Origin: an uncultured Alphaproteobacteria bacterium
Lineage (GTDB): Bacteria; Pseudomonadota; Alphaproteobacteria; HIMB59; GCA-002718135
NCBI GenBank assembly: GCA_902518895.1
Contig: CABYHL010000002.1
Span: 72,680 to 136,679 of the forward strand
Reading direction: 5' to 3'
Length of the DNA stretch: 64,000 bases
Part shown: one piece after another, positions 12,920 to 27,405 of the stretch
How positions within the stretch are numbered: position 1 is the first letter of the stretch
How the letters are laid out: the number at the start of each line of letters is the position of its first letter
The notes under the pieces: model-generated
The model's database searches: none
What the model was told of the DNA's origin: nothing
Seen by the model: the letters and a program-made list of their open reading frames with translations, nothing else
Made by a program: the position numbers and the translations under genes

Positions 12920-13687
12920 TTATTTAGCTGTCCACCCTCCATCAATTACTAGAGATGAACCAGTCATCATTGATGCGGCATCTGAAGCAAGATACACTAC
13001 TGCGCTAGCAATATCACTTTCTGTTGCTATTTTTCCTAAAGGTATGTTTTCAATAACAGATTTTTTAAAACTTTTATCTTTGAAAAATTTTTTGACCATT
13101 GGGGTTTCCACAAATGTAGGACAAACGGAATTAACTCTAATGTTGTGCTTAGCCAAATCAATAGCCATCCCTTTGGTAAGACCTTCAACACCAAACTTAG
13201 TCATATTATAAACACTTCTAAGAGGAGCTCCTACTTTACCTAACTGAGAAGAGATATTTATTATTGATCCACCAATTTTTTTTCTATTTTTTGATTTAAG
13301 CATAACTTTTGTAGCTAATTGAGCAATATCGAATGATGCTTTAATATTAAGATCAACCACTTCACTCATATCTTTTCTTTTAATTTTGGTGAAATATTCA
13401 GGTCTATTTGTGCCAGCATTATTTACTAATATGTCTAATTTATTGATTTCAGAAAATATTTTTTTTATTTCTTTTAAATTAGTTACATCACACACATAAT
13501 AACTACATTTCTTTTTAAGTTTTTTAATTTTGCTTTGAACAATTAAAAGGTCTTTCTCTGTACGACTAAGAATTATTACATTTGCGCCTGCTTCTGCTAA
13601 TGCTATAGCACATGCTTTACCTATGCCTTTGCCTGACCCTGTCACAAGAGCAGTCTTATTTTTTATATTAAAATTTTTTAGAAACAT
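12920..13687 (-). CDS. Short-chain dehydrogenase/reductase
   Basis: A 255-residue classical SDR. It has the cofactor motif TGSGKGIG near residue 17, NNAG at about 90, the catalytic Ser in NISSQ and YNMTK (Y-x3-K), and ends with the family-typical TGSSLVIDGGWTAK. It oxidises or reduces an alcohol/ketone, probably a sugar acid, polyol or 3-hydroxy compound. It is the last gene of the operon binding protein, two permeases, HAD protein, SDR, so its substrate is likely related to what the sugar-type importer brings in. Confidence 0.92.
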   Translation of the reverse strand: MFLKNFNIKNKTALVTGSGKGIGKACAIALAEAGANVIILSRTEKDLLIVQSKIKKLKKKCSYYVCDVTNLKEIKKIFSEINKLDILVNNAGTNRPEYFTKIKRKDMSEVVDLNIKASFDIAQLATKVMLKSKNRKKIGGSIINISSQLGKVGAPLRSVYNMTKFGVEGLTKGMAIDLAKHNIRVNSVCPTFVETPMVKKFFKDKSFKKSVIENIPLGKIATESDIASAVVYLASDAASMMTGSSLVIDGGWTAK

Positions 13688-13700
13688 TTGATCTGATTAT

Positions 13701-14360
13701 TTACAATGAAAGAATAGATTGATCTAATAAATTCATTTTTTTAATACACATTTGAAAACTATCTTCTAAATGGTAATCACCTGGGAACCCAATGCATTTA
13801 ATTCCAGCGTTTACAGCAGAATTGCTACTTTCTTCAGTATCCTCTATTGCTAGACAATCTTCTGGCTGTAAATTTAATTTATCTAATGTGACTTTGTATA
13901 TTTCTGGATGTGGTTTTTCATTTTTAACAAATGACTTATTACCAATGAATTCAAATTCTTCTTTTGAAATTTGATCAGAAAGACTTTCAAATACTGCATC
14001 AACATTATTTAAAGTTGTAGAAGTTGAGAAAGCAAGTTTAATATTATTATCTTTTGTATACTTAATTATTGCACCAACGCTCTTTCTTAATTTTTGTTTA
14101 TTCTGAATAATGTACGAGCTAAAGATTTCTGTTTTTCTATTTCTAATTTGTGAAGCATTTACATTAGTATTATTTTTTTCAGCAAAATCTTCTACCCTTT
14201 TTGTCCCGCCAGATTTTTTTAACAAAATTTTATAATCTTGCTCATCCCAATACCAATCAAGTCCAGCTTCTTTAAAAGCTTCATTAAATGAGTTACGTTG
14301 AATGTTAGAAGATTCAATTAGTGTCCCGATAGATCCAAATATAAGTGCTTTATATTTCAT
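13701..14360 (-). CDS. HAD-superfamily protein lacking the catalytic aspartates (CbbY/Gph-like)
   Basis: A 219-residue HAD-like protein resembling beta-phosphoglucomutase/CbbY phosphatases. Motif I, normally F-D-x-D-G-T-L, reads F-G-S-I-G-T-L at residues 8-14, so the nucleophile Asp (position 9) is Gly and the acid/base Asp (position 11) is Ile. Motif II (AFSTST) and the metal-loop motif IEDTEESSNSAVNAG are kept, as is the cap region (NSFNEAFKEAGLDWYWDEQDY). With no nucleophile, normal phosphatase chemistry is not expected; a binding or regulatory role, or altered chemistry, is possible. It lies between the transporter permease and SDR genes. Confidence 0.85.
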   Translation of the reverse strand: MKYKALIFGSIGTLIESSNIQRNSFNEAFKEAGLDWYWDEQDYKILLKKSGGTKRVEDFAEKNNTNVNASQIRNRKTEIFSSYIIQNKQKLRKSVGAIIKYTKDNNIKLAFSTSTTLNNVDAVFESLSDQISKEEFEFIGNKSFVKNEKPHPEIYKVTLDKLNLQPEDCLAIEDTEESSNSAVNAGIKCIGFPGDYHLEDSFQMCIKKMNLLDQSILSL

Positions 14361-14378: not shown

Positions 14379-15260
14379 TTAACCTTTTACTGCTCCAGCA
14401 GTTAAACCACTTATTAATTGTCTTTGGAAAAACATGATTATCATAAAAAGTGGCGCAGTTGCTGAAACAACACTTGAGACTGCCCACATATAATTTCCAC
14501 TATGTTCAATTGTGCCCAAATAAGCATTAATTTTAGGAACCATAGTATAATTCTGCTGATTTAAAAGAAGTGAAGTAACTGTAAAATCATTATAGGCTAA
14601 CATCATACTGAATAAACCTGCTGTAACAACTCCAGGCCACATAACAGGCATTATAACAAAGCGAAACGCTTGAAAATATGAACAGCCATCAATTAGTGCA
14701 CTTTCATCTAACTCTTTAGGAACTGTTTTAAAGAAGGAATAAAGTAACCATAATGTAAATGGTTGATTGATTGCAACTAAAACAATTATGGTAGTTGGAA
14801 GTATGCCCCAAACGTTCAATTGAAAGAAAGGAAACAGATAACCAGAAACTAATGTAATGTGTGGCATCGCTCTAAAAATCAAGGCAGCTATTAAAATCCA
14901 AAAAGTATATTTATATGTCGATCTAGACAAGGCATAAGCACCTAATGTTCCTAAAAATAAAGAGATCGTAACAACTGAAACAGTGATAATAATTGTATTC
15001 ATTGTTGCTTTCCAAAATTCACCTTCAGTCCAAGACTCTACATATGCCTTAACTGTAGAAGTATTTCCTGTTTCTATCAAAGTATTAACTCCTGTGACTG
15101 CAAACATCCAATCAGCTCTTGAGAAAAAGTCGGCTTTTACTTTAAATGATCCCCAAAAAGTCCATATAAAAGGAAACACAGAAATAATTAACCAAGCAAG
15201 AATAAAAAAACTATTTATTAAAATTAGTTGTTTTGAGTATCTGTTAATTTTTGATTCCAT
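14379..15260 (-). CDS. Carbohydrate ABC transporter permease, MalG type
   Basis: A 293-residue inner-membrane permease of the CUT1 sugar-import family with six helices. The EAA loop reads ELDESALIDGCSYFQAFRFVIMPVMWPG and the C terminus QRQLISGLTAGAVKG is the family hallmark. It starts 1 base after the stop of the MalF-type gene. No ATPase gene is present in this operon, so it must use an ATP-binding subunit encoded elsewhere. Confidence 0.93.
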   Translation of the reverse strand: MESKINRYSKQLILINSFFILAWLIISVFPFIWTFWGSFKVKADFFSRADWMFAVTGVNTLIETGNTSTVKAYVESWTEGEFWKATMNTIIITVSVVTISLFLGTLGAYALSRSTYKYTFWILIAALIFRAMPHITLVSGYLFPFFQLNVWGILPTTIIVLVAINQPFTLWLLYSFFKTVPKELDESALIDGCSYFQAFRFVIMPVMWPGVVTAGLFSMMLAYNDFTVTSLLLNQQNYTMVPKINAYLGTIEHSGNYMWAVSSVVSATAPLFMIIMFFQRQLISGLTAGAVKG

Positions 15261-15261: not shown

Positions 15262-16290
15262 TTATCTTTCTGTCCTAAATTCTCTCCATGTTCTTATAAG
15301 TACTGGTGTTAATAGAATTGCTACACCAATAATAGTTAACATAGATGTTGCTCCTGCAGACCCAAATAACATTTTGTTTTCACTTCTTAAGTCGTTATAA
15401 ATCATCCAAGAAAGTGATTGAGCAACTCCTTCAGCAGCGAACCCAATTATTGGCTCAAGAACCCTAAAATTATCCATTAGACAAATTAATATAATAAATG
15501 TTGCTACCGGATAAAGATGTGGAATAACAATGTGTCTGACTCTTTCATATCTTGAGGCGCCATCTATGATCGCTGCTTCAATTGGATCTTGAGGAACAGT
15601 TTGTAATGCAGCATAAAAGACAACAAAAGCAAATGGTGTATTGTGCCAGATCCCATAAATAATCAGAGTAATCCAAGTCAATTGACTTGAAGACTTTAGA
15701 GATAGATTTGGATCATCAAATAAGAATTGAATGAATGAACCTAATATTCCTTTAGCATCTATCATCCAAAATAAAACGAGAGACCCAATCAATGGTGTTA
15801 CAATCATAGGCAATATAACACCAAAAATGGTTGGGCCTTTTAAGCTTTTTGTAATTGTATTTACACTTAAAGCAACAATGAAACCTAAAACTACAACTGG
15901 TGGCGTAACTGCAAAACAAAATGTAAGTGTAAATAAAAGTGCTTTGTAAAAAGGTAAATTTAGTAAGATATCTGTAAACTCAGCTATCGATGAGGAATTA
16001 GTCCAAGCCTCTTTAATTTCATCAAAAGCTAAATGATTTCTATCGCCGTATGTTCCTAAACCATTAAATCTTCCAAGAGGTTGTTCTTCCTGTAATTTTG
16101 TAGTGGCCTCAATATCTACTTTAGTTTCAGTTTTACATCCAAATGGATCGCATTTTTCTACTTCCATTAAAATTTGTTCAGGTTCAATGTGAAGAGATTG
16201 AAAAAAACTAGAAATAATTGGAAGGCCAATAAATAATAGCATTGCCAATCCACTTGGAAAGAAGAACCAAAAAAATGTTCTGTGGGGCAT
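15262..16290 (-). CDS. Carbohydrate ABC transporter permease, MalF type
   Basis: A 342-residue CUT1 permease. It has an N-terminal helix, a periplasmic segment with CDPFGCKTETKVDIEA (two cysteines that could form a disulfide), then five helices. The EAA loop is DPIEAAIIDGASRYERVRHIVIPHL. It partners the MalG-type subunit downstream and lies 66 bases after the binding-protein gene, with a terminator-like hairpin in between. Confidence 0.93.
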   Translation of the reverse strand: MPHRTFFWFFFPSGLAMLLFIGLPIISSFFQSLHIEPEQILMEVEKCDPFGCKTETKVDIEATTKLQEEQPLGRFNGLGTYGDRNHLAFDEIKEAWTNSSSIAEFTDILLNLPFYKALLFTLTFCFAVTPPVVVLGFIVALSVNTITKSLKGPTIFGVILPMIVTPLIGSLVLFWMIDAKGILGSFIQFLFDDPNLSLKSSSQLTWITLIIYGIWHNTPFAFVVFYAALQTVPQDPIEAAIIDGASRYERVRHIVIPHLYPVATFIILICLMDNFRVLEPIIGFAAEGVAQSLSWMIYNDLRSENKMLFGSAGATSMLTIIGVAILLTPVLIRTWREFRTER

Positions 16291-16356: not shown

Positions 16357-17592
16357 TTATAGAAAACCTTGCTCAGTAGCTTTTGCTACATAAGCAGCTT
16401 CTACATCCGCTAATGCTTTTTCAGCAGACTCATTTCCTTGAAGGAATTCAACAAGTTCTGTACTCAAAGCACCATGTAATAGACTCATGTATGGTAAGCT
16501 TGGATAAGGTGTTGCACCTCTGTTAGCAGCATCAACAACTGGTCCTGCTGTATCTCCGGGCGAATAACCATCAATCAACCAAATTGTTGCATTTGGATTA
16601 GCATTTGCCATTTCTGTTGAAGTTGCTGCACCTAAAAGAGCTCTAAAAGATGCTTCTGCATTTTCATCAGAAGTATTTGTTGCAATTCCAAATCCATCCC
16701 ACCATAGAGTTGTTGCTGGTTTACTTCCACCACCTACAGATGGAGAAGGAGCTAATCTAGTATCAGCTTTAATTGCTTGATCACCTTCATCATCTAACAA
16801 TGAAGCGGCACCTGAATTCCAGATATGCATTAATGCTACATTACCAGACTCCCATTCTTCTTTAACTGCATTTGTATCTTGAGTTAAGAAATCAGGGTTA
16901 CTTACTTCTGTTAATCTTTTAAGCATGTTAAGAGCAGCTACACCTTTAGCGTTATTTACACTAACTTCAGCTGTTCCAGCTTTAAAGAAATCACCTCCAT
17001 GACCAAGGTACATATTTACGAACTCTTGACCGAGGTTCCATCCAGATTTAAAAGCACCAGCATATGGGTTAGCCATTTTACCAGAAGCTTTAATTTTTTC
17101 TGCAGCTGCAATTACTTCTTCATATGTTGAAGGAACTGCGATACCTAAATCATTAAGAATACTTTCTCTGTACCAAAGATGCTGAGCATTAGCCATGAAA
17201 GCTATTGCATAGATCTTTCCATCAATCACGATTTTTTGATTGTCTTGTAATGCACTTCCGTATTTAGCAACTAAATCATCAAGTGGACGAATTAAGTTAT
17301 CATTCATTAAAGTTGTAATTGAACCATTAGTTACAAGTTTAGCAGAGAATTCAGCTGGGTTAGCTGATAGGGCTGCAACTTGTAATTTATTATGATCAAC
17401 GGAATGAGTGACAGAAAAATCTGCACTAGGTCCTGCACAACTTTTTACTTCATCCATGAAAATTCTGTATGTTGTAAATTCGTTTGCTAGAATCTTTATT
17501 GATCCATCTGTTACTCCACAAGGTGAATGCCCGCCGGCATATGCACTTGTGCTAACAAATGTGAACAATAGAGCTATTAATAGTTTTTTCAT
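16357..17592 (-). CDS. Extracellular sugar-binding protein, family 1
   Basis: A 411-residue periplasmic binding protein with a signal peptide (MKKLLIALLFTFVSTSAYA, then GGHSPCG). Family-1 features include AIAFMANAQHLWYRES, VPSTYEEVIAAAEKIKA, EWESGNVALMHIWNSGA and TTLWWDGFGIAT. It captures a carbohydrate-like ligand for the two CUT1 permeases downstream. A GGGGAAAT ribosome site precedes the ATG. It is divergent from a LacI-type regulator, a usual arrangement for substrate-controlled sugar uptake. Confidence 0.93.
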   Translation of the reverse strand: MKKLLIALLFTFVSTSAYAGGHSPCGVTDGSIKILANEFTTYRIFMDEVKSCAGPSADFSVTHSVDHNKLQVAALSANPAEFSAKLVTNGSITTLMNDNLIRPLDDLVAKYGSALQDNQKIVIDGKIYAIAFMANAQHLWYRESILNDLGIAVPSTYEEVIAAAEKIKASGKMANPYAGAFKSGWNLGQEFVNMYLGHGGDFFKAGTAEVSVNNAKGVAALNMLKRLTEVSNPDFLTQDTNAVKEEWESGNVALMHIWNSGAASLLDDEGDQAIKADTRLAPSPSVGGGSKPATTLWWDGFGIATNTSDENAEASFRALLGAATSTEMANANPNATIWLIDGYSPGDTAGPVVDAANRGATPYPSLPYMSLLHGALSTELVEFLQGNESAEKALADVEAAYVAKATEQGFL

Positions 17593-17614
17593 ATATTTCC
17601 CCTTATTAATAAAG

Positions 17615-17627: not shown

Positions 17628-17664
17628 TTTAAGTATAAATCCTTTATATTGGTATTAGAAAATA

Positions 17665-17701
17665 ATGCAATAATATGAATTGATATTCAAGATTTTGAAT
17701 A
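17665..17701. promoter_or_regulatory. Tandem palindromes upstream of the lacI-type gene (shared regulon motif)
   Basis: A perfect TATTCA-AGATTT-TGAATA (17684-17701) ends 20 bases before the regulator ATG. A second copy with one half-site mismatch (ATGCA-ATAATA-TGAAT, 17665-17680) lies exactly 20 bp upstream, centre to centre. The same paired motif stands in both divergent promoters of the SnoaL cluster. Confidence 0.65.
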
Positions 17702-17721
17702 TTGAAATGGGGGGATAATTC

Positions 17722-18720
17722 ATGAGTTTTAAAAAGACTGCGACATCACAGGACGTAGCAAAATTAGCAGGAGTATCCCAATCAGCAGTTTCCAGATGTT
17801 TTACTAAAGGTGCAAGCATTTCTAGCAGGACAAAGTTGAGAGTCTTGGAAGCAGCTAGAAAATTAAAATATAAAGCACCTAATATATCTTCTAATTCAGT
17901 ATCTAATGATGATAGCGGATTAGTGGCTGTCATTTTACCTTACGTTACAAGCAGATATTATCCAGAAGTTTTAATTGAGTTACATGAAGCACTTAGGAAT
18001 GGAGGCTTTAGAATTTTATTAATTACGACTGACGATGGTGAAGAATTAGATGAAAAATTAATACAGCCATACTTAAAAGAAAAACTTATTGCAATAATAT
18101 CAGCCACAAAACCTACTGAAAAATTTGTTGAAGACTGCAATCAAAAAAGAATACAGTTTATTGCCTATAATAGAAGTTGGAATATACCAACAATAAGTTC
18201 CGTTGCGTGTGATCATCGTAATGGAGGAGAAATAGTTGCAGAATATTTTACAAAGAAAAACCATAAAAATATTGGCCTCATTGAAGGGCCAAAAGGATCT
18301 TTTGTTAGCGATGAGCGATGCAAAGGTTTTAAAAATTATCTTAAAAAAAATAAAAAAATTAAATTAAATATTGAAAAAGGTTTTTTTACCTATGAAGGTG
18401 GATATCAAGCAACTGAAAAAATTTTTAATAAAAACATAAGTGCAATATTTTGTGCTGATGACACAATGGCATTTGGTTGTTTAGATTATATTAAAAAAAA
18501 TACTTCATTAAAAACACCTTCTCAATTAGAAATTATTGGTTATGACGATATATCTATGTCATCTTGGGAATCATATAACCTGACAACTGTGAGACAGCCT
18601 ATTAGACAAATGTCAAAACTAGCAACTCAATTAATAAATGAATTTATTAAGGATCCAGATTTTGAACCTATAAATCATATTGTACAGGGAAGACTTATAA
18701 AAAGAAAAACTACAAAATAA
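17722..18720 (+). CDS. LacI-family transcriptional regulator
   Basis: A 332-residue regulator. The N terminus is a LacI helix-turn-helix (TSQDVAKLAGVSQSAVSRCF, about residues 8-27) followed by the hinge-helix region, then a periplasmic-binding-protein-like sensor domain (GLVAVILPYVTSRYYPEVL, IFCADDTMAFGCLDYI, EIIGYDDISMSSWESYNLTTVRQP). It is divergent from the sugar-type importer and probably controls it, with release by a transported compound. The tandem palindrome just upstream suggests self-control, and the same motif at the SnoaL-cluster promoters suggests it, or a regulator acting on it, governs those too. Convergent with an SnoaL gene. Confidence 0.92.
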   Translation: MSFKKTATSQDVAKLAGVSQSAVSRCFTKGASISSRTKLRVLEAARKLKYKAPNISSNSVSNDDSGLVAVILPYVTSRYYPEVLIELHEALRNGGFRILLITTDDGEELDEKLIQPYLKEKLIAIISATKPTEKFVEDCNQKRIQFIAYNRSWNIPTISSVACDHRNGGEIVAEYFTKKNHKNIGLIEGPKGSFVSDERCKGFKNYLKKNKKIKLNIEKGFFTYEGGYQATEKIFNKNISAIFCADDTMAFGCLDYIKKNTSLKTPSQLEIIGYDDISMSSWESYNLTTVRQPIRQMSKLATQLINEFIKDPDFEPINHIVQGRLIKRKTTK

Positions 18721-18721: not shown

Positions 18722-19141
18722 TTACTTAAATTTTAATCCCATCTGTTCGAAAACACCATGATTATCTACCATAACGTAATTATCTAAAAACTTTCCGTCT
18801 TTAATGGTCCAAAAATCTGAAAATTGCATTTTGATAGATTTGCCTGTTGGCTCTACTCCAAGATATGTTCCACTATGTGTGCCTGTTAGAAATCCCGTTG
18901 CACTAATCCACTCACCTTCAGCAACCACGATATCATTTTTTACATGATAATCTGGAAATGCTTCATAAAAAGGTTTTAGAACTTTATATTTAAAATTATC
19001 TATACCATGGATATCACCAAAACCTGGAGGACCATGCCAGACCATATCATCATGCCAGTATTTGTGTTGTGCTTCTAGATCTTGAGCATTAAGTGCATCA
19101 TACATATCAGCTAATAATTTTTTACTTTCATCTAAAGTCAT
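18722..19141 (-). CDS. SnoaL-like protein, single domain (NTF2 fold)
   Basis: A 139-residue protein of the SnoaL/ester-cyclase type within the NTF2-like superfamily. It carries YWHDDMVWHGPPGFGDIHGID, a W-x-GP-x-G-x-G pattern shared with the second domains of the proteins at 20385 and 24589, and ends VMVDNHGVFEQMGLKFK as family members do. The fold covers cyclases, isomerases, dehydratases and ligand binders; no function is assigned. Its start overlaps the stop of the upstream two-domain SnoaL gene by 4 bases, forming a two-gene operon. Confidence 0.85.
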   Translation of the reverse strand: MTLDESKKLLADMYDALNAQDLEAQHKYWHDDMVWHGPPGFGDIHGIDNFKYKVLKPFYEAFPDYHVKNDIVVAEGEWISATGFLTGTHSGTYLGVEPTGKSIKMQFSDFWTIKDGKFLDNYVMVDNHGVFEQMGLKFK

Positions 19142-20277
19142 TTTTTATCTCCTAAAATTTGCATTAGAATTGCAAGCTCATTAAAACCAGTCCACTCTTT
19201 AATAATTTTATTATTTTTAATTTCCCATTGAGTGATTCCCCACAAATACACTTCTCTATTAGATGGTTGGCCATATGAACCATTCCCTTTATGCGTTCCT
19301 ACTGCACCCCAACGAACCGATACTAAATAGCCGTCTTTTGTATTTCCCATCCAGTATAAATCTTCAATACTAAGTGCAAGATCAGGAAACGAAGCTAAAA
19401 GTGAAATTATAAATTTTCTTAATTGCAAAACTCCTTTAAATTTACGACCAGTTGAACCTTCAAATTCTACCTTACTCGAGTATGCTTTATTTATTGCAGA
19501 AAAGTTTCGTCTATTCCAAATTGTATCATAAACTGCATGAACAAACTCTCTTACATTTGTAATTTTATCTGGAATATCAAAACTAATTGGTTTTAATTTA
19601 GAAATATTTCTTGTTGGTTTAGAGTTTTTAAAATGAGGGGCATGGGGTCCTGCAATTCCCTCATCAACAAGTTGCTTGGCTACCTGATTTAAATCTAATC
19701 CGAGTTGTGTAATTAAACCTGCTGTATCGTAGACAACATTTTCGTAATAAATTTCATTATTTTTGGCTACACAATTAGCAATACAAAATAATCTTACTTT
19801 TTTACCAGTTGGTTTGGAAAATTTGCTAAATCCCGTATTTGTTCCAGTAATAATTGTTCTATGCGAAGTATGAAAACTTGCATTTTCATTCCCTGCCCAA
19901 ATAACTTCATCTGCAAATAATCGAATATCTGGAAAGGCGTTGTTTGTGTGTACAGTATCAGCTACTATTTTTTCAGATCCAGATTGTAAACCAAATTCAT
20001 CCCAAACTCTGCAATCTTTACTGTAGGTGTCATAGATGTAACCAATATTTTTTTCTTCCCAGATTTGATATGTAATCCTTACAATATAATCGATTATATT
20101 TTTATACTGATCCTCAAACCCCTTCATTGATTGATGTTTAAGTTTTTTTGGTTTTGGATTTAATGACTTAGCTGTTCCTCCACCACCGTATGCTTTTAAT
20201 GAAATATCATAACTTTTAGGCATATGATGATCTTGAAGAGCTTCTGGTCTTTTATCTGTAATTTTATTAAATTTCAT
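19138..20277 (-). CDS. Two-domain SnoaL-like protein, first type
   Basis: A 379-residue protein with two NTF2/SnoaL-like domains (about 55-195 and 240-375) after a basic, Gly-rich extension of about 50 residues (LKAYGGGGTAKSLNPKPKK). From the Met at residue 51 (MKGFEDQYK) it runs parallel to the protein at 22522-23514, sharing ITYQIWE, VIW-x-GN and, in domain 2, VRW followed by G-x-H-x-G-x-G. The start could therefore be at 20127; the longer start is kept because the frame is open and the shorter has no visible ribosome site. Function unknown. Divergent from another SnoaL gene across a motif-bearing promoter. Confidence 0.8.
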   Translation of the reverse strand: MKFNKITDKRPEALQDHHMPKSYDISLKAYGGGGTAKSLNPKPKKLKHQSMKGFEDQYKNIIDYIVRITYQIWEEKNIGYIYDTYSKDCRVWDEFGLQSGSEKIVADTVHTNNAFPDIRLFADEVIWAGNENASFHTSHRTIITGTNTGFSKFSKPTGKKVRLFCIANCVAKNNEIYYENVVYDTAGLITQLGLDLNQVAKQLVDEGIAGPHAPHFKNSKPTRNISKLKPISFDIPDKITNVREFVHAVYDTIWNRRNFSAINKAYSSKVEFEGSTGRKFKGVLQLRKFIISLLASFPDLALSIEDLYWMGNTKDGYLVSVRWGAVGTHKGNGSYGQPSNREVYLWGITQWEIKNNKIIKEWTGFNELAILMQILGDKK

Positions 20278-20310
20278 AATTTGTATTTGTAATGAGATAC
20301 ATTTAAAAAT

Positions 20311-20348
20311 ATTTCAAAGCAATGAAATTTTATTCAAAAAAATGAATA
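20311..20348. promoter_or_regulatory. Tandem palindromes between divergent SnoaL genes (shared regulon motif)
   Basis: Two palindromes with identical 6-base spacers stand 20 bp apart, centre to centre: ATTTCA-AAGCAA-TGAAAT (20311-20328) and TATTCA-AAAAAA-TGAATA (20331-20348). They lie in the 107-base gap between the starts at 20277 and 20385 and are placed to control both transcription units. Confidence 0.7.
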
Positions 20349-20384
20349 TTGTCTTTTTTAATATATTAATATAATCAAAATGAA

Positions 20385-21389
20385 ATGACTGATCTCCAAG
20401 CAGAAAAAAAATTAGTATTAGATTATTTCAATGAAATAGATAGTTGCAACATTGATTCATTATCTGAAGTTATATCCAAATACGCATCAGAAGATTTTAG
20501 TATGAAATGTACCCACCCATTCAACGAACTAGGTAGTATAGATCTTGTTGCAAATAATCTTTGGAAACCAATTAAAGATTCATTTTCACCTATACAACGT
20601 CGATTAGATATATTTTATGCTGGGATAAATTCATTAGATAAAAATAAAGGGAAATGGATCTCCAGCATGGGTCATTTAATGGGTGTTTTCAATAAACCGT
20701 TTGTAGGCCTTAAACCAAATTATAAATCTACTTTATTAAGATTTGCTGAATTTTATAAAGTGGAGAATAATAAAATTACTGAAGGAGCAATTTTTTTAGA
20801 TGTAATGAATTTAATGCAGCAACTAGGTCTTTCTATAATTCCTGAATCTACAGGTCTCGTTTGTGTGACTCCAGGGCCAATGAATCATAAAGGTTTAAAA
20901 TTTGATATTTCTAATGAAAGTGAAAGTCAAAAAACATTGGATTTAATTCATAGAATGCGCGATCGACTTGTTAAAGGATCCAAAATGCAATCTTATAAAG
21001 AAGAATTAGAATTAGATTGGCATAATGACATGATTTGGTGGGGACCAGGAGGCATAGGGGCTTCATATACTATTGATGGTTATGAAAAAGGTCACACAAA
21101 ACCATTTCAAGATGGTTTAGAGTTTGTTCGTTTCAATGGACACATACTTAGTAGCTCTGAAGATGATCTTGGAGGTTGGTTTGGTTGGCCAAATTTAATT
21201 ATGAAACCTAAAGGAGAATATTTAGGATTAACAAATGCAAGTGATATTGAATCAGAAATGAGAGTTGTAGATTTATATCGAAGAGATGGAGATAAACTAG
21301 CTGAAAACTGGATCTTTATTGATCATTTACATTTTTTAAAAAAACTAGGAGTGGATCTTTTAGAAAGAGCAAAATTTTTAAATCAGTAA
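20385..21389 (+). CDS. Two-domain SnoaL-like protein, second type
   Basis: A 334-residue protein with two SnoaL/NTF2-like domains (about 5-150 and 185-330). The second domain has DWHNDMIWWGPGGIGASYTI, matching the W-x-GP-x-G-x-G pattern of the single-domain protein at 18722 and of the protein at 24589. Domain ends read FLDVMNLMQQLGLS and FIDHLHFLKKLGVD, a repeated helix that supports internal duplication. It is a single-gene unit, convergent with a MetE-like gene whose stop is directly adjacent. Catalytic role unknown; isomerase, cyclase, dehydratase or binding functions are all possible for the fold. Confidence 0.82.
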   Translation: MTDLQAEKKLVLDYFNEIDSCNIDSLSEVISKYASEDFSMKCTHPFNELGSIDLVANNLWKPIKDSFSPIQRRLDIFYAGINSLDKNKGKWISSMGHLMGVFNKPFVGLKPNYKSTLLRFAEFYKVENNKITEGAIFLDVMNLMQQLGLSIIPESTGLVCVTPGPMNHKGLKFDISNESESQKTLDLIHRMRDRLVKGSKMQSYKEELELDWHNDMIWWGPGGIGASYTIDGYEKGHTKPFQDGLEFVRFNGHILSSSEDDLGGWFGWPNLIMKPKGEYLGLTNASDIESEMRVVDLYRRDGDKLAENWIFIDHLHFLKKLGVDLLERAKFLNQ

Positions 21390-22517
21390 TTAGATAACTT
21401 TTGAAGCAAGTTTAGTGCCCTCAACTAATGCATGAAGCTTTTCATAACAAATTTTTTCATCAATTTTTCCAAAACCAGCAAATGTACTAAAACCACAATC
21501 TGTCCCTGCCATTAATTGATCTTTTGGAATGACTGTAGAAAACTGAATCAATCTATCTGCAACAACTTCTGGATGTTCAACAAAATTAGAGGTCGAGTCG
21601 ATTACACCTGGTACTAAGACTTTATCTTTTGGTAACTTTATATCTTGAAAAACTTTCCATTCATGTGCGTGCCTAGGATTAGAAGATTCAATGAGAAAGT
21701 ATTTTACCTTTGATTTCAAAATTATAGGTAATATTTTATCTAGAGAAATATCGTGTGTGTGAGGTCCTTCATAATTGCCCCAACATATATGCATTCTAGT
21801 TTGCTCAACATCTACATTAGATAATGCTGAGTTTAGGCATTCAATTTGTAGTTCTGCACGTTTTATAAACTCATCTTCAGATAAATTTTTAAAATTCATA
21901 TGTCTTGCTAAAGCAAGGTCTGGGCAATCTAATTGAACTTGGATATCTGATTTTGTTATTAGCTCATATTCTTTAGCCATAATATTAGATAATTTATCCA
22001 AATATTCATCTTCGGTACTATAAAATTTATTTGGCATAAAAACATTTATGACGCCAGGTGATGCTGAGTTCATAAATGCATGTCGGTGATTAAGTTTATC
22101 AAGTGAATTTTTAAAATTATTTATATCCTGTAGAAGAGACGTTTCATCTTTTACTTTTAATTCGTTTGTACAACATGGTCTGGTATAAGTTGGCGTGCCA
22201 CCACTTTTAGCAATCTTTTCTTTGTATTCTGGAAAATCATCAAGATCAGCAGGTGCTCTTCTTTCACTTTCACCTGAGAAGCCATCAATTCTGTCTTTAA
22301 TATATGTAGCGTAGCTAATTTTACTCATCTCCCCATCACTGACAAAATCAATTCCAACATCAAGTTGGCTCTTAACAACACTTTCCACGTTATTTTTTAA
22401 TACTTCATCAAAAGTACTTTGACTAAATTTCTCTCCTTTATCTTTTGCAAATAAAAATTCTGAAAGTTCTTTTGATCTAGGAAGGCTTCCAACATGCGTT
22501 GTTAAAATATTAGACAT
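21390..22517 (-). CDS. MetE-like zinc methyltransferase, catalytic domain only (second copy)
   Basis: A 375-residue protein of the cobalamin-independent methionine synthase C-terminal family, starting LTTHVGSLPRSKEL. Zinc ligands are visible as His and Cys in RMHICWGNYEGP, Glu in LIESSNPRHAHE and Cys in GTDCGFSTFAG. Like the copy at 7512 it lacks the N-terminal folate domain, but the two differ strongly in sequence, so they are not a recent duplication. It is the last gene of a bicupin, SnoaL, MetE-like operon, which suggests methyl or alkyl transfer to a thiol within the SnoaL pathway rather than methionine synthesis. Confidence 0.85.
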   Translation of the reverse strand: MSNILTTHVGSLPRSKELSEFLFAKDKGEKFSQSTFDEVLKNNVESVVKSQLDVGIDFVSDGEMSKISYATYIKDRIDGFSGESERRAPADLDDFPEYKEKIAKSGGTPTYTRPCCTNELKVKDETSLLQDINNFKNSLDKLNHRHAFMNSASPGVINVFMPNKFYSTEDEYLDKLSNIMAKEYELITKSDIQVQLDCPDLALARHMNFKNLSEDEFIKRAELQIECLNSALSNVDVEQTRMHICWGNYEGPHTHDISLDKILPIILKSKVKYFLIESSNPRHAHEWKVFQDIKLPKDKVLVPGVIDSTSNFVEHPEVVADRLIQFSTVIPKDQLMAGTDCGFSTFAGFGKIDEKICYEKLHALVEGTKLASKVI

Positions 22518-22521
22518 TAAA

Positions 22522-23514
22522 TTAACCTGTTTTTAATAAAATCTGTTTCCAGATCATAGTTTCATCATAGAGAACCCATTCATTTTTAATACCTCTTTCT
22601 CCAAATTCAACATGATTAATACCCATTATATAAATTTTCGAATTAGAGGCTTTCCCAAAAAGACCATCCCCTTCATGTTTACCTACCATGGACCATCGAA
22701 CTGAGGCTTTTTTAGGTTGATATTTTTCTTCAGTAAATGCAATATGCTCGACTGAGAACAATGCGTTAGGAAAAGCATCTCTTAATTGTTTCCAAAATTT
22801 TATTACCTCATCTCTACCATGGTGAGTTTTTCCACCTGGTTGAAATTGCTGTATAGCTCTGTCATAACTATCATTTATTGTTTTCTCTAAATTAATGTTC
22901 ATTATAGAGGTTAAGATACTTGCATATAATTCTCCAGAATTACCAGAAGCTAATATAGGAGATTTATAAATAGATTTAACAGGTGTATTTTCATCAAAGG
23001 GTTTACTAGCTTTTTCAGGACCACCTTCATCTTTAATAAGATTGCTTGCAAATTTCTTAGGATCAATTCCAATTTGTCTCACAATTGCTCCTTGATCTCT
23101 CACAAGCCACTCATCATAAACTTGATTATTCATGCATGCACAATCAGCGATAGTTCGGTAATAAAGTTTTTTCCCTGTTGCTTTCCCATACATCCCATCA
23201 ACAGCATGAGTTGAGGTTGATAAGATGCGGTGTGATGAAAAATATCCCTCTTCATCATTTCCTGTCCAAATTACATCTTCACCTAAAAGTGTTCTGTCGG
23301 GAAATAGTTTTTTACTAGCATAAGTACTTTCTATTACCGGGTCTGCACCATAAATTACTCCAGATGGAGATCTTGTAGGTGTTGGAAGATTTACATTTGG
23401 GGTATCAGCATAATAATCTCTTATTGCTTCAACATCGTTGTTTTCCCAAATTTGATATGTGATCTTTAAAATATAATCAGGAAAATCTTTGAATTGTGCA
23501 TCAAATCCTTTCAT
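22522..23514 (-). CDS. Two-domain SnoaL-like protein, first type (paralogue of 19138-20277)
   Basis: A 330-residue protein with two SnoaL/NTF2-like domains (about 1-160 and 190-325). It starts MKGFDAQFKDFPDYILKITYQIWE and aligns by eye over its whole length with the protein encoded at 19138-20277, including VIWTGNDEEGYFSSHR in domain 1 and VRWSMVGKHEGDGLFGKAS in domain 2. It sits 4 bases upstream of the MetE-like gene and 11 bases downstream of the bicupin gene, so all three should be co-transcribed. Function unknown. Confidence 0.82.
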   Translation of the reverse strand: MKGFDAQFKDFPDYILKITYQIWENNDVEAIRDYYADTPNVNLPTPTRSPSGVIYGADPVIESTYASKKLFPDRTLLGEDVIWTGNDEEGYFSSHRILSTSTHAVDGMYGKATGKKLYYRTIADCACMNNQVYDEWLVRDQGAIVRQIGIDPKKFASNLIKDEGGPEKASKPFDENTPVKSIYKSPILASGNSGELYASILTSIMNINLEKTINDSYDRAIQQFQPGGKTHHGRDEVIKFWKQLRDAFPNALFSVEHIAFTEEKYQPKKASVRWSMVGKHEGDGLFGKASNSKIYIMGINHVEFGERGIKNEWVLYDETMIWKQILLKTG

Positions 23515-23525
23515 ATAATTAATAT

Positions 23526-24497
23526 TTAATTAGTTTGTCGTATTATAAATAAATTACCATCATGATCACTTATCTGTCTTATTGAACGAAGTGAATTTTT
23601 TGGAACAGAAAAAGTATCTTTTTCTTTAATTACAACTCTGTTTCCATCACAATCTATTTCCCATTCACCAGATAAACAATGATACACTTCTGATTTCTCC
23701 AGTTTGTATTCATGTATATGAGCACTCTTGCCGTTGAGAAGTGAAAGGCTAAAACCTGTTGCATGCGGTATATTAGGGGTAAAAGATTTATCATGAATTT
23801 GAAACTGATCAATGTAGTTGATAATTTTATTAGATTGATAGTGATCATCATCGACAAAATATTTATCTTTATCATTAAATCTAATAACAAACTTTTCTAT
23901 GTCTTCTGAAGAGTAATGATCGAAACTCTCTAATTCATTATCTTCTAGTGGCTGAATAATTTTAGTTTCATCTGTTATTTTCTGTTTCTCTGTGTCGATT
24001 AAAGAATTATCATTCATTAATACCATGCCAGATTCTTTTGCATCTTTTAAAAGTTTTGGTGTCCAAGTAATAACACCTGGATCATTTTCTCCTAACACAA
24101 CAAACATTAAAGCTTCTTCATCACTTACATTTTGAAAACCTCTGAACATGTTTGTGGGAAAGGAAGCGATGTCACCTTTTTTTAGTATTACTTCTCCTTC
24201 TGTGCCATCAACACCCCAATAAAAACGCCAAGCTCCTGAATGAATGATAAAAACCTCAGCAGTTGTGTGACTATGTAATCCAGAGCCATTCATCGGCGCA
24301 GCGCTTACCGCACCAATATTAAAGCCATGTTCTTCAGCTATTTTAACATTTTGTTTAGCATCTTCGCTTACGCCAGGACCTATAACTGAATAATTTTTTC
24401 TATCTTGATGACCTTTTAGTTTTCCCTCAACAAATGGTATATTACTAGGAATAAGTTCATCGAATTTCGCTAATCTAGATGTAATATTAATTGACAT
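23526..24497 (-). CDS. Bicupin protein
   Basis: A 323-residue protein with two cupin barrels. The first has the metal-site pattern HSHTTAEVFIIHSGAWRFYWG (about residues 76-96) followed by KGDIASFPTNMFRGFQNV; the second has HIHEYKLEKSEVYHCLSGEW with KEKDTFSVPKNSLRSIRQI. Bicupins include dioxygenases, isomerases and decarboxylases that use Fe, Mn or Ni. The His/Glu patterns suggest metal binding in both barrels. It heads the bicupin, SnoaL, MetE-like operon and is divergent from a SnoaL-HisD-like operon. Reaction not known. Confidence 0.85.
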   Translation of the reverse strand: MSINITSRLAKFDELIPSNIPFVEGKLKGHQDRKNYSVIGPGVSEDAKQNVKIAEEHGFNIGAVSAAPMNGSGLHSHTTAEVFIIHSGAWRFYWGVDGTEGEVILKKGDIASFPTNMFRGFQNVSDEEALMFVVLGENDPGVITWTPKLLKDAKESGMVLMNDNSLIDTEKQKITDETKIIQPLEDNELESFDHYSSEDIEKFVIRFNDKDKYFVDDDHYQSNKIINYIDQFQIHDKSFTPNIPHATGFSLSLLNGKSAHIHEYKLEKSEVYHCLSGEWEIDCDGNRVVIKEKDTFSVPKNSLRSIRQISDHDGNLFIIRQTN

Positions 24498-24513
24498 ATT
24501 GTAATGATCTTTT

Positions 24514-24550
24514 ATTCATTTTTTTTGAATATTATTCAAAATAATGAATA
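24514..24550. promoter_or_regulatory. Tandem palindromes between bicupin and SnoaL genes (shared regulon motif)
   Basis: TATTCA-AAATAA-TGAATA (24533-24550) is a perfect match to the sites before the lacI-type gene and the first divergent SnoaL pair. A second element, ATTCA-T7-TGAAT (24514-24530, spacer 7), lies about 20 bp away. Both fall in the 91-base gap between the divergent starts at 24497 and 24589. Confidence 0.7.
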
Positions 24551-24588
24551 AATCAATTATTATTTAACAATAGTGTTATTAAATTATT

Positions 24589-25686
24589 ATGGCAAATAAA
24601 ATACAAAACTTTGATACAGGTGAGAAAGATAACTCAAATATAATTCATTTAGATCTTGATCCAAAGATAAATATTGAAAACAAAATATATTTCAAAAATT
24701 TATTAAAAAAAATTGCCGAGTGCTCTTTAGATGATTTAGATAAAAATCTTGAAAATCTATATCACGCAGATGCTGAGTTTAATGGCTTTCATCCAATTAA
24801 TGAAATTAATGGAATTGAAGAAATAAAAAATAAATATTTAATACCTCTAAAAAAGGCATTCCCCGATCTTGAAAGAAGAAATAATCTAGTAATTGGTGGT
24901 TCATTTAGAGATAAAGTTTTTGTTTCATTTATTAGTCATTTAACTGGAACTTTTAAAAATGAGTGGTTAGGTGTAAAGCCGACTAATAAAACAATTTATC
25001 TTCGAACATGTGAAGCGCATCAAATTACAAACAATAAAATAATAAAATCTTACACATTAATTGATACTGTAGACTTTATTCGTCAGGCTGGTCATTGGCC
25101 CATTAATAAATCTCTTGGTGTAGAAGGGATGTGGCCTAGTCCCATCACAGGTGATGGAGAAAATAATCAAAATTTAGATAAGGAGCTGTCTCTTCAATCT
25201 TTGAATCAAGATTTAACCATGCAAAGAAGTTTAAATATTAAACCTGAGACTGAGCCAGGTCTTACAAAAGATCAAATAAGAGAAAAATTAATTAATCATC
25301 CTCAACAAGATTATTGGCATCCAAAAATGATGTGGTATGGGCCAAGTGGTATAGGTACAGCTAGAGGTTTAGATGGTTTTGTTGATCATCACCAACTCCC
25401 ATTTAGACTTACGTTCAAGGATAGAGATTATTGGAAAATCGGTCATTATATTGAAATTGGAGATGGAAATTATTCTATGACTGGTGGTTGGCATAGTATT
25501 CAGTGTGTTCATGGATCAAGTGATTGGCTAGGATATGAACCAACTCAAAAAAAAATAACAATGAGAGTCATGGATTTTTATTTACATCATGAAGGGCTAA
25601 TTAGAGAAAATTGGGTACCAATCGATATAGCACACTTATTAGATCAAATAGGCATTGATATCTTTAAATTAATTCATAAAAAATAA
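24589..25686 (+). CDS. Two-domain SnoaL-like protein, second type (paralogue of 20385-21389)
   Basis: A 365-residue protein with two SnoaL/NTF2-like domains (about 30-175 and 230-362). Domain 1 has the SnoaL core LTGTFKNEWLGVKPTNKTI; domain 2 has DYWHPKMMWYGPSGIGTARG and ends VPIDIAHLLDQIGIDI, paralleling the protein at 20385. A 50-residue linker connects them. It is followed after 2 bases by the HisD-like dehydrogenase gene, so the pair is an operon. Function unknown. Confidence 0.82.
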   Translation: MANKIQNFDTGEKDNSNIIHLDLDPKINIENKIYFKNLLKKIAECSLDDLDKNLENLYHADAEFNGFHPINEINGIEEIKNKYLIPLKKAFPDLERRNNLVIGGSFRDKVFVSFISHLTGTFKNEWLGVKPTNKTIYLRTCEAHQITNNKIIKSYTLIDTVDFIRQAGHWPINKSLGVEGMWPSPITGDGENNQNLDKELSLQSLNQDLTMQRSLNIKPETEPGLTKDQIREKLINHPQQDYWHPKMMWYGPSGIGTARGLDGFVDHHQLPFRLTFKDRDYWKIGHYIEIGDGNYSMTGGWHSIQCVHGSSDWLGYEPTQKKITMRVMDFYLHHEGLIRENWVPIDIAHLLDQIGIDIFKLIHKK

Positions 25687-25688
25687 TT

Positions 25689-27008
25689 ATGGCAATTGAA
25701 TATTTAAAAAAAGGTTTAGATGAAAAACAAAGAATTGAAGATAATGATAAAGTAAAAAAAATTGTTGAACAAACATTAAGTAAAATTGAATCAGAAGGCG
25801 ATAAACATATTAGAGAGTTATCTCAAAAATTTGATAATTACTCTCCAGATAATTTTAGATTAAGTGAAGATCAAATAAATCAATTAATGAGTGAAGTCTC
25901 TGATGATGACAAAGAAGATATTAAATTTGCTCAAAAACAAGTGCGATCATTTGCGGAAGCACAACTTAAAACTTTAAGTGAATTAGAAGTAGAAACACAT
26001 CCAGGTGTGATTCTTGGTCATAAAAATATACCAGTACAAGCAGTTGGATGTTATGTGCCTGCTGGAAAATTCCCAATGGTAGCTTCTGCGCATATGTCAG
26101 TTGTGACTGCCTCTGTTGCCGGGGTTCCAAGAATTGTTGCCACTACCCCACCTTTTAAAGGTAAGCCAAATCCAGCTGTCGTTACGGCAATGAAAATGGG
26201 CGGTGCTCACGAAATTTATGTTTTGGGAGGAATGCAAGGAGTTGGTGCTATGGCTATTGGTACAGAAACAATTAAACCTGTCGATATGCTTGTTGGACCT
26301 GGTAATGCATTTGTTGCTGAAGCAAAAAGACAATTGTATGGCAAAGTTGGTATCGATTTATTTGCCGGTCCAACTGAAACAATGGTAATTGCAGATGAAA
26401 CTGTTGATGGTGAAATATGTGCAACAGACTTATTAGGACAAGCTGAACATGGATATAATTCTCCTGCTGTGATGATAACAAATTCAAGAAAACTTGCAGA
26501 AGAAACATTTAAAGAAATTGATAGAATTTTAGAAATTTTACCTACTAAAGAAACAGCAAGTACAAGCTGGAGAGATTATGGAGAAATGATTTTATGTGAT
26601 ACTTATGAGGAGATGTTATCTAAAGCAAATGAAATAGCTTCAGAACACGTTCAAGTTATGACAAAAAAAGATGATTGGTTTTTAGAAAATATGACATCTT
26701 ATGGAGCTCTATTTTTGGGTGCTAGAACTAATGTTGCTAATGGTGATAAAGTCATAGGCACTAATCATACTCTTCCTACTAAAAAAGCTGGAAGATATAC
26801 TGGTGGTTTGTGGGTTGGTAAGTTCATTAAAACCCATACTTATCAAAAGATTATGACAGATGAAGCTGCAACTCTCATCGGAGAATATGGATCTAGACTT
26901 TCACATTTAGAAGGTTTTATAGGTCATGCAGAACAATGTAATGTGAGAGTAAGACGATATGGGAAAAAAAATGTTGGATATGGAAAACCAGCAGGAGAAA
27001 AAATTTAG
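25689..27008 (+). CDS. Histidinol dehydrogenase-family protein, probably HpsN-like alcohol dehydrogenase
   Basis: A 439-residue NAD-dependent dehydrogenase of the HisD family with GCYVPAGKFP, MLVGPGNAFVAEAKR, AGPTETMVIADE and QAEHGYNSPA. The zinc region reads GDKVIGTNHTLPT and the late His is in GHAEQCNVRVRR. Histidine-biosynthetic HisD usually has GDY at this point, whereas the sulfopropanediol dehydrogenase HpsN has GDK as I recall, and both that enzyme and this one start MAIEYLKK. No his genes are near. It therefore probably oxidises a secondary or primary alcohol in catabolism, possibly a C3-sulfonate. The subfamily call needs a tree; true HisD is the alternative. Confidence 0.8.
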   Translation: MAIEYLKKGLDEKQRIEDNDKVKKIVEQTLSKIESEGDKHIRELSQKFDNYSPDNFRLSEDQINQLMSEVSDDDKEDIKFAQKQVRSFAEAQLKTLSELEVETHPGVILGHKNIPVQAVGCYVPAGKFPMVASAHMSVVTASVAGVPRIVATTPPFKGKPNPAVVTAMKMGGAHEIYVLGGMQGVGAMAIGTETIKPVDMLVGPGNAFVAEAKRQLYGKVGIDLFAGPTETMVIADETVDGEICATDLLGQAEHGYNSPAVMITNSRKLAEETFKEIDRILEILPTKETASTSWRDYGEMILCDTYEEMLSKANEIASEHVQVMTKKDDWFLENMTSYGALFLGARTNVANGDKVIGTNHTLPTKKAGRYTGGLWVGKFIKTHTYQKIMTDEAATLIGEYGSRLSHLEGFIGHAEQCNVRVRRYGKKNVGYGKPAGEKI

Positions 27009-27009: not shown

Positions 27010-27405
27010 TTATTTTAATTCCCCTTTAACTCTCATTTCATTTCTAATTTTTGTTGCCGAGATATCATGTATTTCTTTTCCTAAATCATGTTCTGTAAAT
27101 GAATAACCAACTCCTCTTCCATAAGAAATATCAATAATGTTTGGAACCTTAACAACTACATATTCTTTTCCATCAGTAAAACCATGTTGAGCTAAACCTT
27201 CATTAATTTTTGCTTTTACTTCTTCAAATTGAAATGGATTGTCAGCTTGACCCTCTACACCTGCATCTACACCTCCCACGTCACGATACATAATACATAC
27301 CTGACCTGTTTTCTGAAGAGCTCTTTTAAATAATTCTGTATGTCCGTCATGCCATGGTTGCCATCTACCTAACATTTGTACTGTTGGTTTTTTCCAATCA
27401 AACAT
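27010..27405 (-). CDS. Small nucleotidyltransferase (cytidylyl/NMN-adenylyltransferase-like)
   Basis: A 131-residue protein with the nucleotidyltransferase signature GRWQPWHDGH (H-x-G-H at residues 19-22) and C-terminal ISATKIR, the I-S-x-T-x-I-R motif. These mark the alpha/beta-phosphodiesterase fold that moves AMP or CMP onto a phosphate. The QP-W-H-x-GH form resembles NMN adenylyltransferases more than ATP sulfurylase. It overlaps the APS-kinase-like gene by 8 bases, and cysQ precedes both. Substrate unknown. Confidence 0.75.
   Translation of the reverse strand: MFDWKKPTVQMLGRWQPWHDGHTELFKRALQKTGQVCIMYRDVGGVDAGVEGQADNPFQFEEVKAKINEGLAQHGFTDGKEYVVVKVPNIIDISYGRGVGYSFTEHDLGKEIHDISATKIRNEMRVKGELK

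Follow-up and report, generated by a model that had tools for sequence, protein, structure and literature searches.

A 64,000-nucleotide stretch of DNA (the window) from an uncultured bacterium of the AEGEAN-169/HIMB59 order carries a catabolic gene cluster rich in SnoaL-type proteins. The cluster probably belongs to one LacI-controlled uptake-and-degradation regulon, built from two modules and serving a sugar-sized, probably cyclic, methylated natural compound. We observed a characteristic gene content, co-conservation of the genes, importer variants that match the SnoaL variants, a common operator, and intact metal and catalytic residues. A preliminary description had read the cluster as a complete uptake-and-degradation system for a marine compound. 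What stands is an uptake-and-degradation regulon that has an ABC importer and a LacI regulator of its own and co-occurs across Alphaproteobacteria; the restriction to marine bacteria and the completeness of the set do not stand, and the sulfonated polyol suggested as substrate is weakened.

Eight open frames lie within 18722–27008, with the strands and sizes originally given. Pfam bears out their assignment (Table 1): five encode SnoaL-fold proteins, with nine domains in all and two subclasses among the double-domain members, and the other three a bicupin, a MetE-like zinc protein and a dehydrogenase of the HisD family. The frames starting at 18722, 19138, 20385, 22522 and 24589 match the SnoaL family PF07366 (E 3e-25 to 1.5e-11), while those at 21390, 23526 and 25689 match Meth_synt_2, Cupin_2 (in two stretches) and Histidinol_dh, respectively.

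Table 1. Genes and predicted operators of the regulon, in window coordinates
Feature	Position	Strand	Basis
SDR-family dehydrogenase, last gene of importer operon	12920..13687	-	PF13561/PF00106; labelled in 15/27 related loci outside the order
HAD-like hydrolase; CbbY is its nearest solved relative	13701..14360	-	PF13419; PDB 4uat, E 1e-33
ABC importer permease B	14379..15260	-	PF00528; conserved in cluster
ABC importer permease A	15262..16290	-	PF00528
Importer solute-binding protein (SBP), sugar type, SBP_bac_1	16357..17592	-	PF01547; weak resemblance to maltose/trehalose binders
Operator 1 (predicted), importer operon / lacI intergenic	17684..17701	.	exact TATTCA-N6-TGAATA
LacI-family regulator	17722..18720	+	PF00356 and PF13377; labelled in 18/27 related loci outside the order
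Sno1, one SnoaL domain	18722..19141	-	PF07366, E 3e-25
Sno2A, double SnoaL, subclass 1	19138..20277	-	PF07366, two stretches; homolog alignment
Operator 2 (predicted), Sno2A / Sno2C intergenic	20331..20348	.	exact TATTCA-N6-TGAATA
Sno2C, double SnoaL, subclass 2	20385..21389	+	PF07366, two stretches; homolog alignment
MetE-like protein without N-terminal half of MetE	21390..22517	-	PF01717; H243, C245, E277, C341 invariant
Sno2B, double SnoaL, subclass 1, core gene	22522..23514	-	PF07366; match in 112/162 genomes of the order
Bicupin, core gene; metal ligands kept in N-terminal cupin only	23526..24497	-	PF07883; 111/162 genomes
Operator 3 (predicted), bicupin operon / Sno2D-hisD operon intergenic	24533..24550	.	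exact TATTCA-N6-TGAATA
Sno2D, double SnoaL, subclass 2, core gene	24589..25686	+	PF07366; N-terminal domain modelled, SnoaL-like fold
HisD-family dehydrogenase, motif GKFPM	25689..27008	+	PF00815, E 3e-133; nearest solved relative HpsN

All five SnoaL proteins exceed the curated whole-protein score for PF07366 (28.4 bits). In the genome at hand (1.27 Mb, 71% complete), all eight matches to this family fall inside the cluster, the second domain of Sno2C not being among them, as do five of the seven matches to the wider family PF12680. The two parallel pairs proposed earlier were recovered: Sno2A and Sno2B are 32% identical over 325 residues, and Sno2C and Sno2D 27% identical over 311. Pairs drawn from different subclasses gave partial-length matches only. 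With domain borders set by hand, the nine domains can be aligned along their length, although few columns are conserved. Eight of them have an Asp close to the C-terminal end, which is replaced by Asn in the C-terminal domain of Sno2A; this residue may be the equivalent of the catalytic Asp121 of SnoaL. Structure models of Sno2D and Sno2B were poor overall (mean pLDDT 54 and 39), probably because the homologs used were too alike. The N-terminal domain of Sno2D was modelled with fair confidence and has a SnoaL-like fold; the structure-based comparison was made with this domain alone.

In the MetE-like protein, H243, C245, E277 and C341 are invariant in 21 of 21 homologs and are presumably the zinc ligands of the MetE family. 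Its best NCBIfam methionine synthase score (106.7 bits) falls short of the equivalog cut-off (406). The N-terminal cupin of the bicupin keeps H75, H77, E81 and R119 in 29 of 29 homologs. Bicupin dioxygenases of the quercetinase type have a 3-His-1-Glu metal site; the site found here differs from it, R119 taking the place of the expected fourth ligand. Judged against the usual cupin motif, the C-terminal cupin of the window protein has presumably lost its motif. In the HisD-type protein, the zinc ligands Q251, H254, D353 and H413 and the catalytic residues E319 and H320 are invariant in 22 of 22 homologs. Its best-scoring solved relative is HpsN (PDB 8v35), at 401 bits; the best histidinol dehydrogenase scores 258. 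A role in histidine synthesis was rejected, as the host genome has a separate HisD-like gene, whose product is 35% identical to the cluster protein and presumably biosynthetic. The HisD motif G-S-A-P-L, as given in the accessible part of PMC11382572, is absent from the cluster protein, which reads GKFPM; this is a weak test, since the second HisD-like protein reads GRAFY there. The pRL8 hisD of Rhizobium, considered as a possible characterised relative, appears in one paper as a proteome-table entry with no function given.

A shared motif over the importer, LacI, SDR and HAD genes had been reported, and the palindrome is indeed present in all three divergent promoter regions. When one mismatch is allowed, the window contains four matches against 1.1 expected, and two of 100 shuffles reach four. 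The exact palindrome occurs at four sites genome-wide (1.27 Mb) and a control pattern at none. Because the motif was first picked out in these very three regions, independent support comes from its genome-wide rarity and from conservation in relatives, where operators of the form TTTGCA/TATGCA-N6-TGCAAA were found in nine of the 38 outgroup loci scanned. On sequence grounds, the palindrome would tie the importer, LacI, SDR and HAD genes into one regulon. The fourth exact site, on contig C8, is near frames that by eye resemble an acetyltransferase, a flavin reductase and a polyprenyl synthase.

The upper module of the proposed regulon would comprise an exchangeable sugar-type ABC importer and matching SnoaL proteins (here Sno1, Sno2A and Sno2C), and the lower core Sno2B, the bicupin, the MetE-like protein, Sno2D and the HisD-type enzyme. 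The gene-neighbourhood search supported co-occurrence: across 162 genomes of the order, Sno2B and the bicupin are found together in 110, neither is found in 49, and one alone in three. Where both are present they are adjacent, 6–19 bases apart, in 109 of 110 genomes. Only G062 has the bicupin without Sno2B; the two genomes with a Sno2B match and no bicupin (G076 and G152) both score at the level of paralogs. The identity of the SBP co-varies with the SnoaL block. Among 56 two-ended loci (64 minus eight that lack one end), 47 have Sno1, Sno2A and Sno2C together with an SBP 76–100% identical to that of the window, at least five genomes being counted twice (L036/L089, L037/L087, L038/L083, L039/L081 and L040/L076 share coordinates). 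Eight loci lack the three genes, and their SBP is just 40–49% identical. L035 was also scored as lacking the block, but its frames are broken and parts of all three genes are present, which leaves eight true absences rather than nine. In the second family of the order, the HisD-type (83–86% identical to the window) and MetE-like (74–81%) proteins are about as close as the upper module. Exchange of modules is therefore not supported there, and a separate transfer of the upper module into that family was withdrawn.

Rather than being scattered in relatives, the related set recurs in other Alphaproteobacteria, and there are relatives in Vibrio, Pantoea, Deinococcus, Priestia and Sinorhizobium. 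The last four argue against a specifically marine system. In 27 loci, several of them cut by contig ends, that cover 25 genomes (all 26 matches outside the order except G503), a simple ORF picker with bit-score cut-offs labelled the bicupin in 25, the HisD type in 21, the MetE-like protein in 20, LacI and an ABC ATPase in 18 each, Sno2D in 17, the SDR in 15, Sno1 in 14, a hydrolase in 13, and an RraA or HpcH aldolase in 10. Nor is the set in the window complete: in Ruegeria the clusters also encode an RraA-type aldolase, an alpha/beta hydrolase and an ABC ATPase. Phaeobacter piscinae has the importer, Sno2A, Sno2C, Sno1 and LacI, with no HisD, bicupin or MetE-like gene in the region seen. In Vibrio pelagius the importer is accompanied by four double SnoaL proteins, and the region seen shows no HisD, SDR or cupin; this arrangement falls outside what the two-module model explains. 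The clusters of Priestia, Novosphingobium, Deinococcus, Sinorhizobium medicae, Roseibium, Pantoea and Paracoccus show no MetE-like protein, so methyl removal would not be universal.

From these data we infer a substrate class, an order of steps and a reaction for each enzyme. The SnoaL proteins of the upper module would carry out the first, substrate-specific conversions, delivering a common intermediate on which Sno2B and Sno2D may act. The MetE-like zinc protein would pass a methyl group, or another alkyl group, on to a thiol, and the HisD-like enzyme, with NAD, would oxidize a primary alcohol beside a hydroxyl or amino group to the carboxylate. The bicupin, with its one metal site, may target an enol or an enediol. 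Many relatives also encode a PcaD-like hydrolase and an aldolase of the RraA or HpaI type, which could then yield pyruvate. In the genome of the window these last steps have no assigned enzyme, because no RraA was found in the available 71% and HpcH-type proteins occur only outside the cluster.

The same genes might instead degrade a methylated or branched sugar or polyol, a reading that we consider credible but hold as the less likely one. An SDR or GMC dehydrogenase and a lactonase would be followed by SnoaL proteins as dehydratase or isomerase, by the HisD enzyme acting on a terminal CH2OH, and by a pyruvate aldolase. The sugar-type importer and LacI fit this scheme, as do the CbbY-like HAD hydrolase, an Amidohydro_2 protein resembling L-fuconolactonase next to Sno2C in Ruegeria, and an HpaI/GarL-like aldolase in Pantoea. 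A GMC oxidoreductase is found inside the operon at loci L109 and L114 (from Pfam for L114), and a PfkB kinase adjoins the cluster at L117. However, no recurrent kinase and no classical sugar-acid dehydratase were identified among the frames scanned in the loci read. Moreover, no zinc MetE-like protein is known to act as a sugar O-demethylase, and SnoaL proteins are not known from sugar pathways.

A more specific proposal, which we regard as improbable, is that the operon acts on mycosporine-like amino acids or their gadusol core (algal, cyanobacterial and fungal sunscreens). Exchangeable importer and SnoaL modules would import different mycosporines and strip amino acids from the ring, the MetE-like protein would take the methyl off the methoxyl of the ring, giving a cyclic reductone, the HisD-like enzyme would oxidize the CH2OH beside the tertiary hydroxyl, and the bicupin would open the reductone ring. 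On paper the product would be 4-carboxy-4-hydroxy-2-oxoadipate, which an RraA-fold aldolase could cleave to pyruvate and oxaloacetate. The attraction of this chemistry is that it gives a role to five protein families together and arrives at a substrate of characterised RraA-fold aldolases, as described in the part of PMC5065237 available; the bicupin also has weak matches to quercetin dioxygenase (E 0.003) and acireductone dioxygenase (E 0.07). However, the aldolase is missing from the available genome of the window and from many related loci, soil rhizobia and Bacillota also have the gene set, several of them lacking the MetE-like protein, and the scheme gives the SDR no role. Among top-ranked titles, a literature search returned no paper on a bacterial pathway of mycosporine degradation; according to the accessible text of PMC3083659, Vibrio harveyi has been suggested to hydrolyse shinorine and porphyra-334.

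The weakest alternative has the HisD-like protein act as a DHPS 3-dehydrogenase (HpsN) on DHPS or a similar compound and feed the nearby xsc (31240–33009). Its relation to HpsN speaks for this, as do a class III aminotransferase (9673–11013) and a frame that by eye resembles alanine dehydrogenase (8558–9673). In the available part of PMC11382572, HpsN is marked by G-R-Y-A/S-H, whose His126 binds the sulfonate. The protein in the window has GKFPM at residues 126–130, and all aligned homologs with 60% identity or more have G-K-F/Y-P-M/L; the sulfonate-binding histidine is in none of the aligned homologs. The motif, as read from sequence, argues against a plain sulfonate pathway, and after this comparison we lowered the sulfonate reading to very unlikely. 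The importer is of the sugar type, and the stretches shown for Ruegeria, Paracoccus and Octadecabacter carry no annotated xsc, suyAB or hps gene. A tauA annotated about 10 kb from the Paracoccus cluster and a TauD/TfdA-family dioxygenase about 2 kb beyond that of Octadecabacter leave this estimate unchanged because they lie outside the conserved set. Of the methylated or sulfonated polyol or ring first suggested, the sulfonated polyol is thus weakened, and a methylated ring is still a candidate.

The compound that we favour, probably cyclic and methylated, would be handled by an importer-linked, tightly regulated pathway; in an abundant lineage of the oligotrophic ocean, 110 of the 162 genomes have it. 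Recurrence across several phyla, in soil as well as marine bacteria, implies that a common dissolved compound is involved, whose link to these genes was not found in the literature. Our searches for a described pathway with this gene set, like the earlier account, returned nothing relevant, and SnoaL and polyketide are not mentioned in the main texts of the AEGEAN-169 papers searched. Identifying the substrate would bring a further flux into the ocean carbon cycle and show what double-domain SnoaL proteins, a further class of HisD-family dehydrogenase and a catabolic MetE-like protein do. Cultured Ruegeria strains carry copies on plasmids, so the pathway can be tested directly.

Four known systems offer comparisons. 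RraA proteins of related operons share with HMG/CHA aldolase (RraA fold) an Arg-Asp pair, invariant in 10 of 10, and PDB 3noj is a weak match (E 0.006), but RraA was found neither in the window nor in its genome as far as available; one other RraA-fold enzyme is a dehydratase/decarboxylase, according to the text available of PMC8563752. With cobalamin-independent methionine synthase (MetE), the protein encoded at 21390 has in common the C-terminal catalytic domain with its invariant His, Cys, Glu and Cys, whereas it lacks the N-terminal half and is placed in a catabolic operon. HpsN, the R-DHPS 3-dehydrogenase of Cupriavidus pinatubonensis, which converts R-DHPS to R-sulfolactate, shares the HisD fold, zinc ligands and catalytic Glu-His pair with the dehydrogenase, which differs in having methionine or leucine for the sulfonate histidine (in homologs at least 60% identical) and in its operon partners. 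The SnoaL/NTF2-like ester cyclases (SnoaL, AknH, IdmH and AclR) have PF07366 and the fold of the Sno2D N-terminal domain in common with the cluster proteins, which, in contrast, carry two domains per chain, occur as several paralogs per operon and stand in an importer-linked catabolic setting.

The genes listed in the preliminary description were all found in the window, each in the class assigned to it, and pairwise comparison recovered the two subclasses of double-SnoaL proteins (Sno2A with Sno2B, Sno2C with Sno2D). The available genome (1.27 Mb, 71% complete; window on its contig C2) has its nearest relatives in the named genome collection among uncultured marine Alphaproteobacteria and MarineAlpha5, from which we place it in the AEGEAN-169/HIMB59 order. 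Its PF07366 matches, eight of eight, lie inside the cluster. The regulon reaches past the interval first described and takes in the importer operon and lacI. Three intergenic regions each hold an exact TATTCA-N6-TGAATA palindrome, a pattern that occurs four times genome-wide against zero for the backward control. Among 44 loci of close relatives, three exact sites are present in 31, two in 9, one in 3 and none in 1; LacI would bind these palindromes. Half-site variants inside the order AEGEAN-169/HIMB59 (TATGCA...TGAATA) link them to the TGCA-type operators of Ruegeria and Paracoccus (TTTGCA-N6-TGCAAA) and of Deinococcus (TATGCA-N6-TGCAAA). Such an operator was found in 9 of 38 outgroup loci scanned, and a 27-locus subset held 5 sites versus 0.2 per shuffle (single-base shuffles only). 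Because 29 of the 38 had no site of this form, we do not claim that the operator is general.

Features of the cluster, its surroundings and three fetched loci
Stretch	Position	Feature	Remark
window	5969-7504	sulfatase-like frame (by eye)	adjoins next gene
window	7461-8561	second MetE-like protein	no other protein of the available genome matches the MetE-like one of the cluster
window	8558-12031 and 29635-33009	taurine/isethionate-type route genes, on both sides of cluster	alanine-dehydrogenase-like frame (by eye), class III aminotransferase, phosphate acetyltransferase, GMC oxidoreductase, xsc
window	17592 down to 12920	importer operon	
window	17593-17721	intergenic	palindrome
window	17722	lacI	
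window	18722	Sno1	single SnoaL domain
window	19138	Sno2A	subclass 1
window	20278-20384	intergenic	palindrome
window	20385	Sno2C	subclass 2
window	21390	MetE-like	
window	22522	Sno2B	subclass 1
window	23526	bicupin	
window	24498-24588	intergenic	palindrome
window	24589	Sno2D	subclass 2
window	25689-27008	HisD-like	
window	27010-27811	small gene pair after hisD	nucleotidyltransferase-like, APS-kinase-like
L048 (Phaeobacter inhibens plasmid)	11626-14996	apparent decayed cluster remnant	ABC ATPase, Sno2D-like piece, Sno2B; IS3 element downstream
L102	8078-15122	HisD-like gene (~73% identical to window's), SDR	with TAXI-TRAP transporters; HpcH aldolase
L104	8718-15191	HisD-like gene (~73% identical to window's), SDR	with TAXI-TRAP transporters

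In the neighbourhood, xsc scores above the NCBIfam cut-off. Some relatives have the small gene pair after hisD at up to 100% identity; in stretches fetched from others we did not detect it.

Sno2B was matched in 112 and the bicupin in 111 of the order's 162 genomes, both in 110; these genomes are mutually related and hence not independent trials. Sno2B alone was matched in two genomes, at paralog level, and the bicupin alone in one of 69% completeness. The two genes are 6–19 bases apart in 109 of the 110 genomes and on separate contigs in the remaining one.

The cluster's parts were compared in 64 loci of the order (at least five genomes counted twice), of which 56 run from the solute-binding protein to HisD. 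Sno1, Sno2A and Sno2C are all present in 47, with a solute-binding protein 76–100% identical to the window's. Eight have none of the three and a solute-binding protein of 40–49% identity; seven of these carry a different SnoaL gene at the importer operon, ~30% identical to Sno2D. The last, L035 (genome G116), was kept apart for its broken frames, many cluster genes being split across neighbouring frames, probably through sequencing errors. This co-variation also tracks lineage: in the eight loci Sno2B shares 57–63% identity with the window protein. Three second-family loci (L033, L034, L042) have Sno1, Sno2A and importer 79–93% and Sno2B ~60% identical to the window's. Separate transfer of the upper module into this family is possible; Sno2C (60–77%), HisD (83–86%) and MetE-like (74–81%) in the same loci keep us from a firmer statement. 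Phaeobacter piscinae has the importer, Sno2A, Sno2C, Sno1 and a LacI with the core absent from the region covered, and in Ensifer adhaerens an importer with Sno2A and Sno2C adjoins a core without MetE-like. We infer an upper part, made up of importer and SnoaL proteins and specific to the substrate, that feeds a common lower part.

Across the class, a subclass 1 profile with the limit set at E 1e-20 picked out 30 of 387 sampled genomes, of which 26 lie outside the order. We fetched 27 stretches from 25 of the latter; some are cut off at contig ends, and their gene order is ABC-Sno1-HisD-Sno2D-SDR-LacI-Sno2B-bicupin-MetE-hydrolase-RraA with many local losses. Thirteen of the stretches have a labelled hydrolase and ten a labelled RraA or HpcH aldolase. 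Relatives of Sno2B occur in 52 of 72,556 plasmid records, among them Ruegeria, Sinorhizobium, Deinococcus, Vibrio, Pantoea and Priestia. The L102 and L104 stretches, with no SnoaL gene annotated, are perhaps a separate pathway using the same two dehydrogenases.

Zinc and catalytic residues of the HisD-like protein are invariant in 22 of 22 aligned homologs. L025, L031, L037 and L041 replace it with a 46–47% identical subtype (motif GRYNN or GRNNY), the neighbours unchanged. Four residues of the MetE-like protein, which we take to be zinc ligands, are invariant in 21 of 21 homologs, as are H75, H77, E81 and R119 of the bicupin in 29 of 29; the C-terminal cupin of the window's bicupin lacks ligands, judged against the cupin motif. 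No RraA was found in the available part (71%) of the window's genome, and its two HpcH-family proteins over cut-off lie away from the cluster.

Gene content and these residues suggest a scheme in which a sugar-sized compound would be imported and would undergo SnoaL-type conversions. An alkyl group would be passed to a thiol, a CH2OH oxidised, and enol chemistry would depend on metal; where an aldolase is present, aldol cleavage would yield pyruvate. It is improbable that the operon degrades mycosporine-type compounds, the gadusol core being demethylated, oxidised and then cleaved as a reductone. On paper, cleavage would give 4-carboxy-4-hydroxy-2-oxoadipate, a substrate of RraA-fold HMG/CHA aldolases (PMC5065237), but the aldolase is absent from the available window genome, the SDR is left without explanation, some clusters have no MetE-like gene and the gene set is widely distributed in soil. 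Vibrio pelagius has an importer with four double-SnoaL proteins; according to a suggestion relayed in a review (PMC3083659), shinorine and porphyra-334 are hydrolysed by a different species, Vibrio harveyi. We treat this juxtaposition as a lead, not as evidence.

Our search of the accessible literature, which takes in a minority of subscription papers, found no described pathway with this gene set. The HisD-like protein differs from its nearest solved relative, HpsN (R-DHPS 3-dehydrogenase), in having methionine or leucine, among homologs at least 60% identical, at the sulfonate-recognising position. The Ruegeria operon encodes a hydrolase similar to PcaD, an RraA-like aldolase with an Arg-Asp pair and an Amidohydro_2 protein similar to L-fuconolactonase, all scoring far below equivalog cut-offs. 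We regard the cluster as a variant of the importer-linked catabolic operon.
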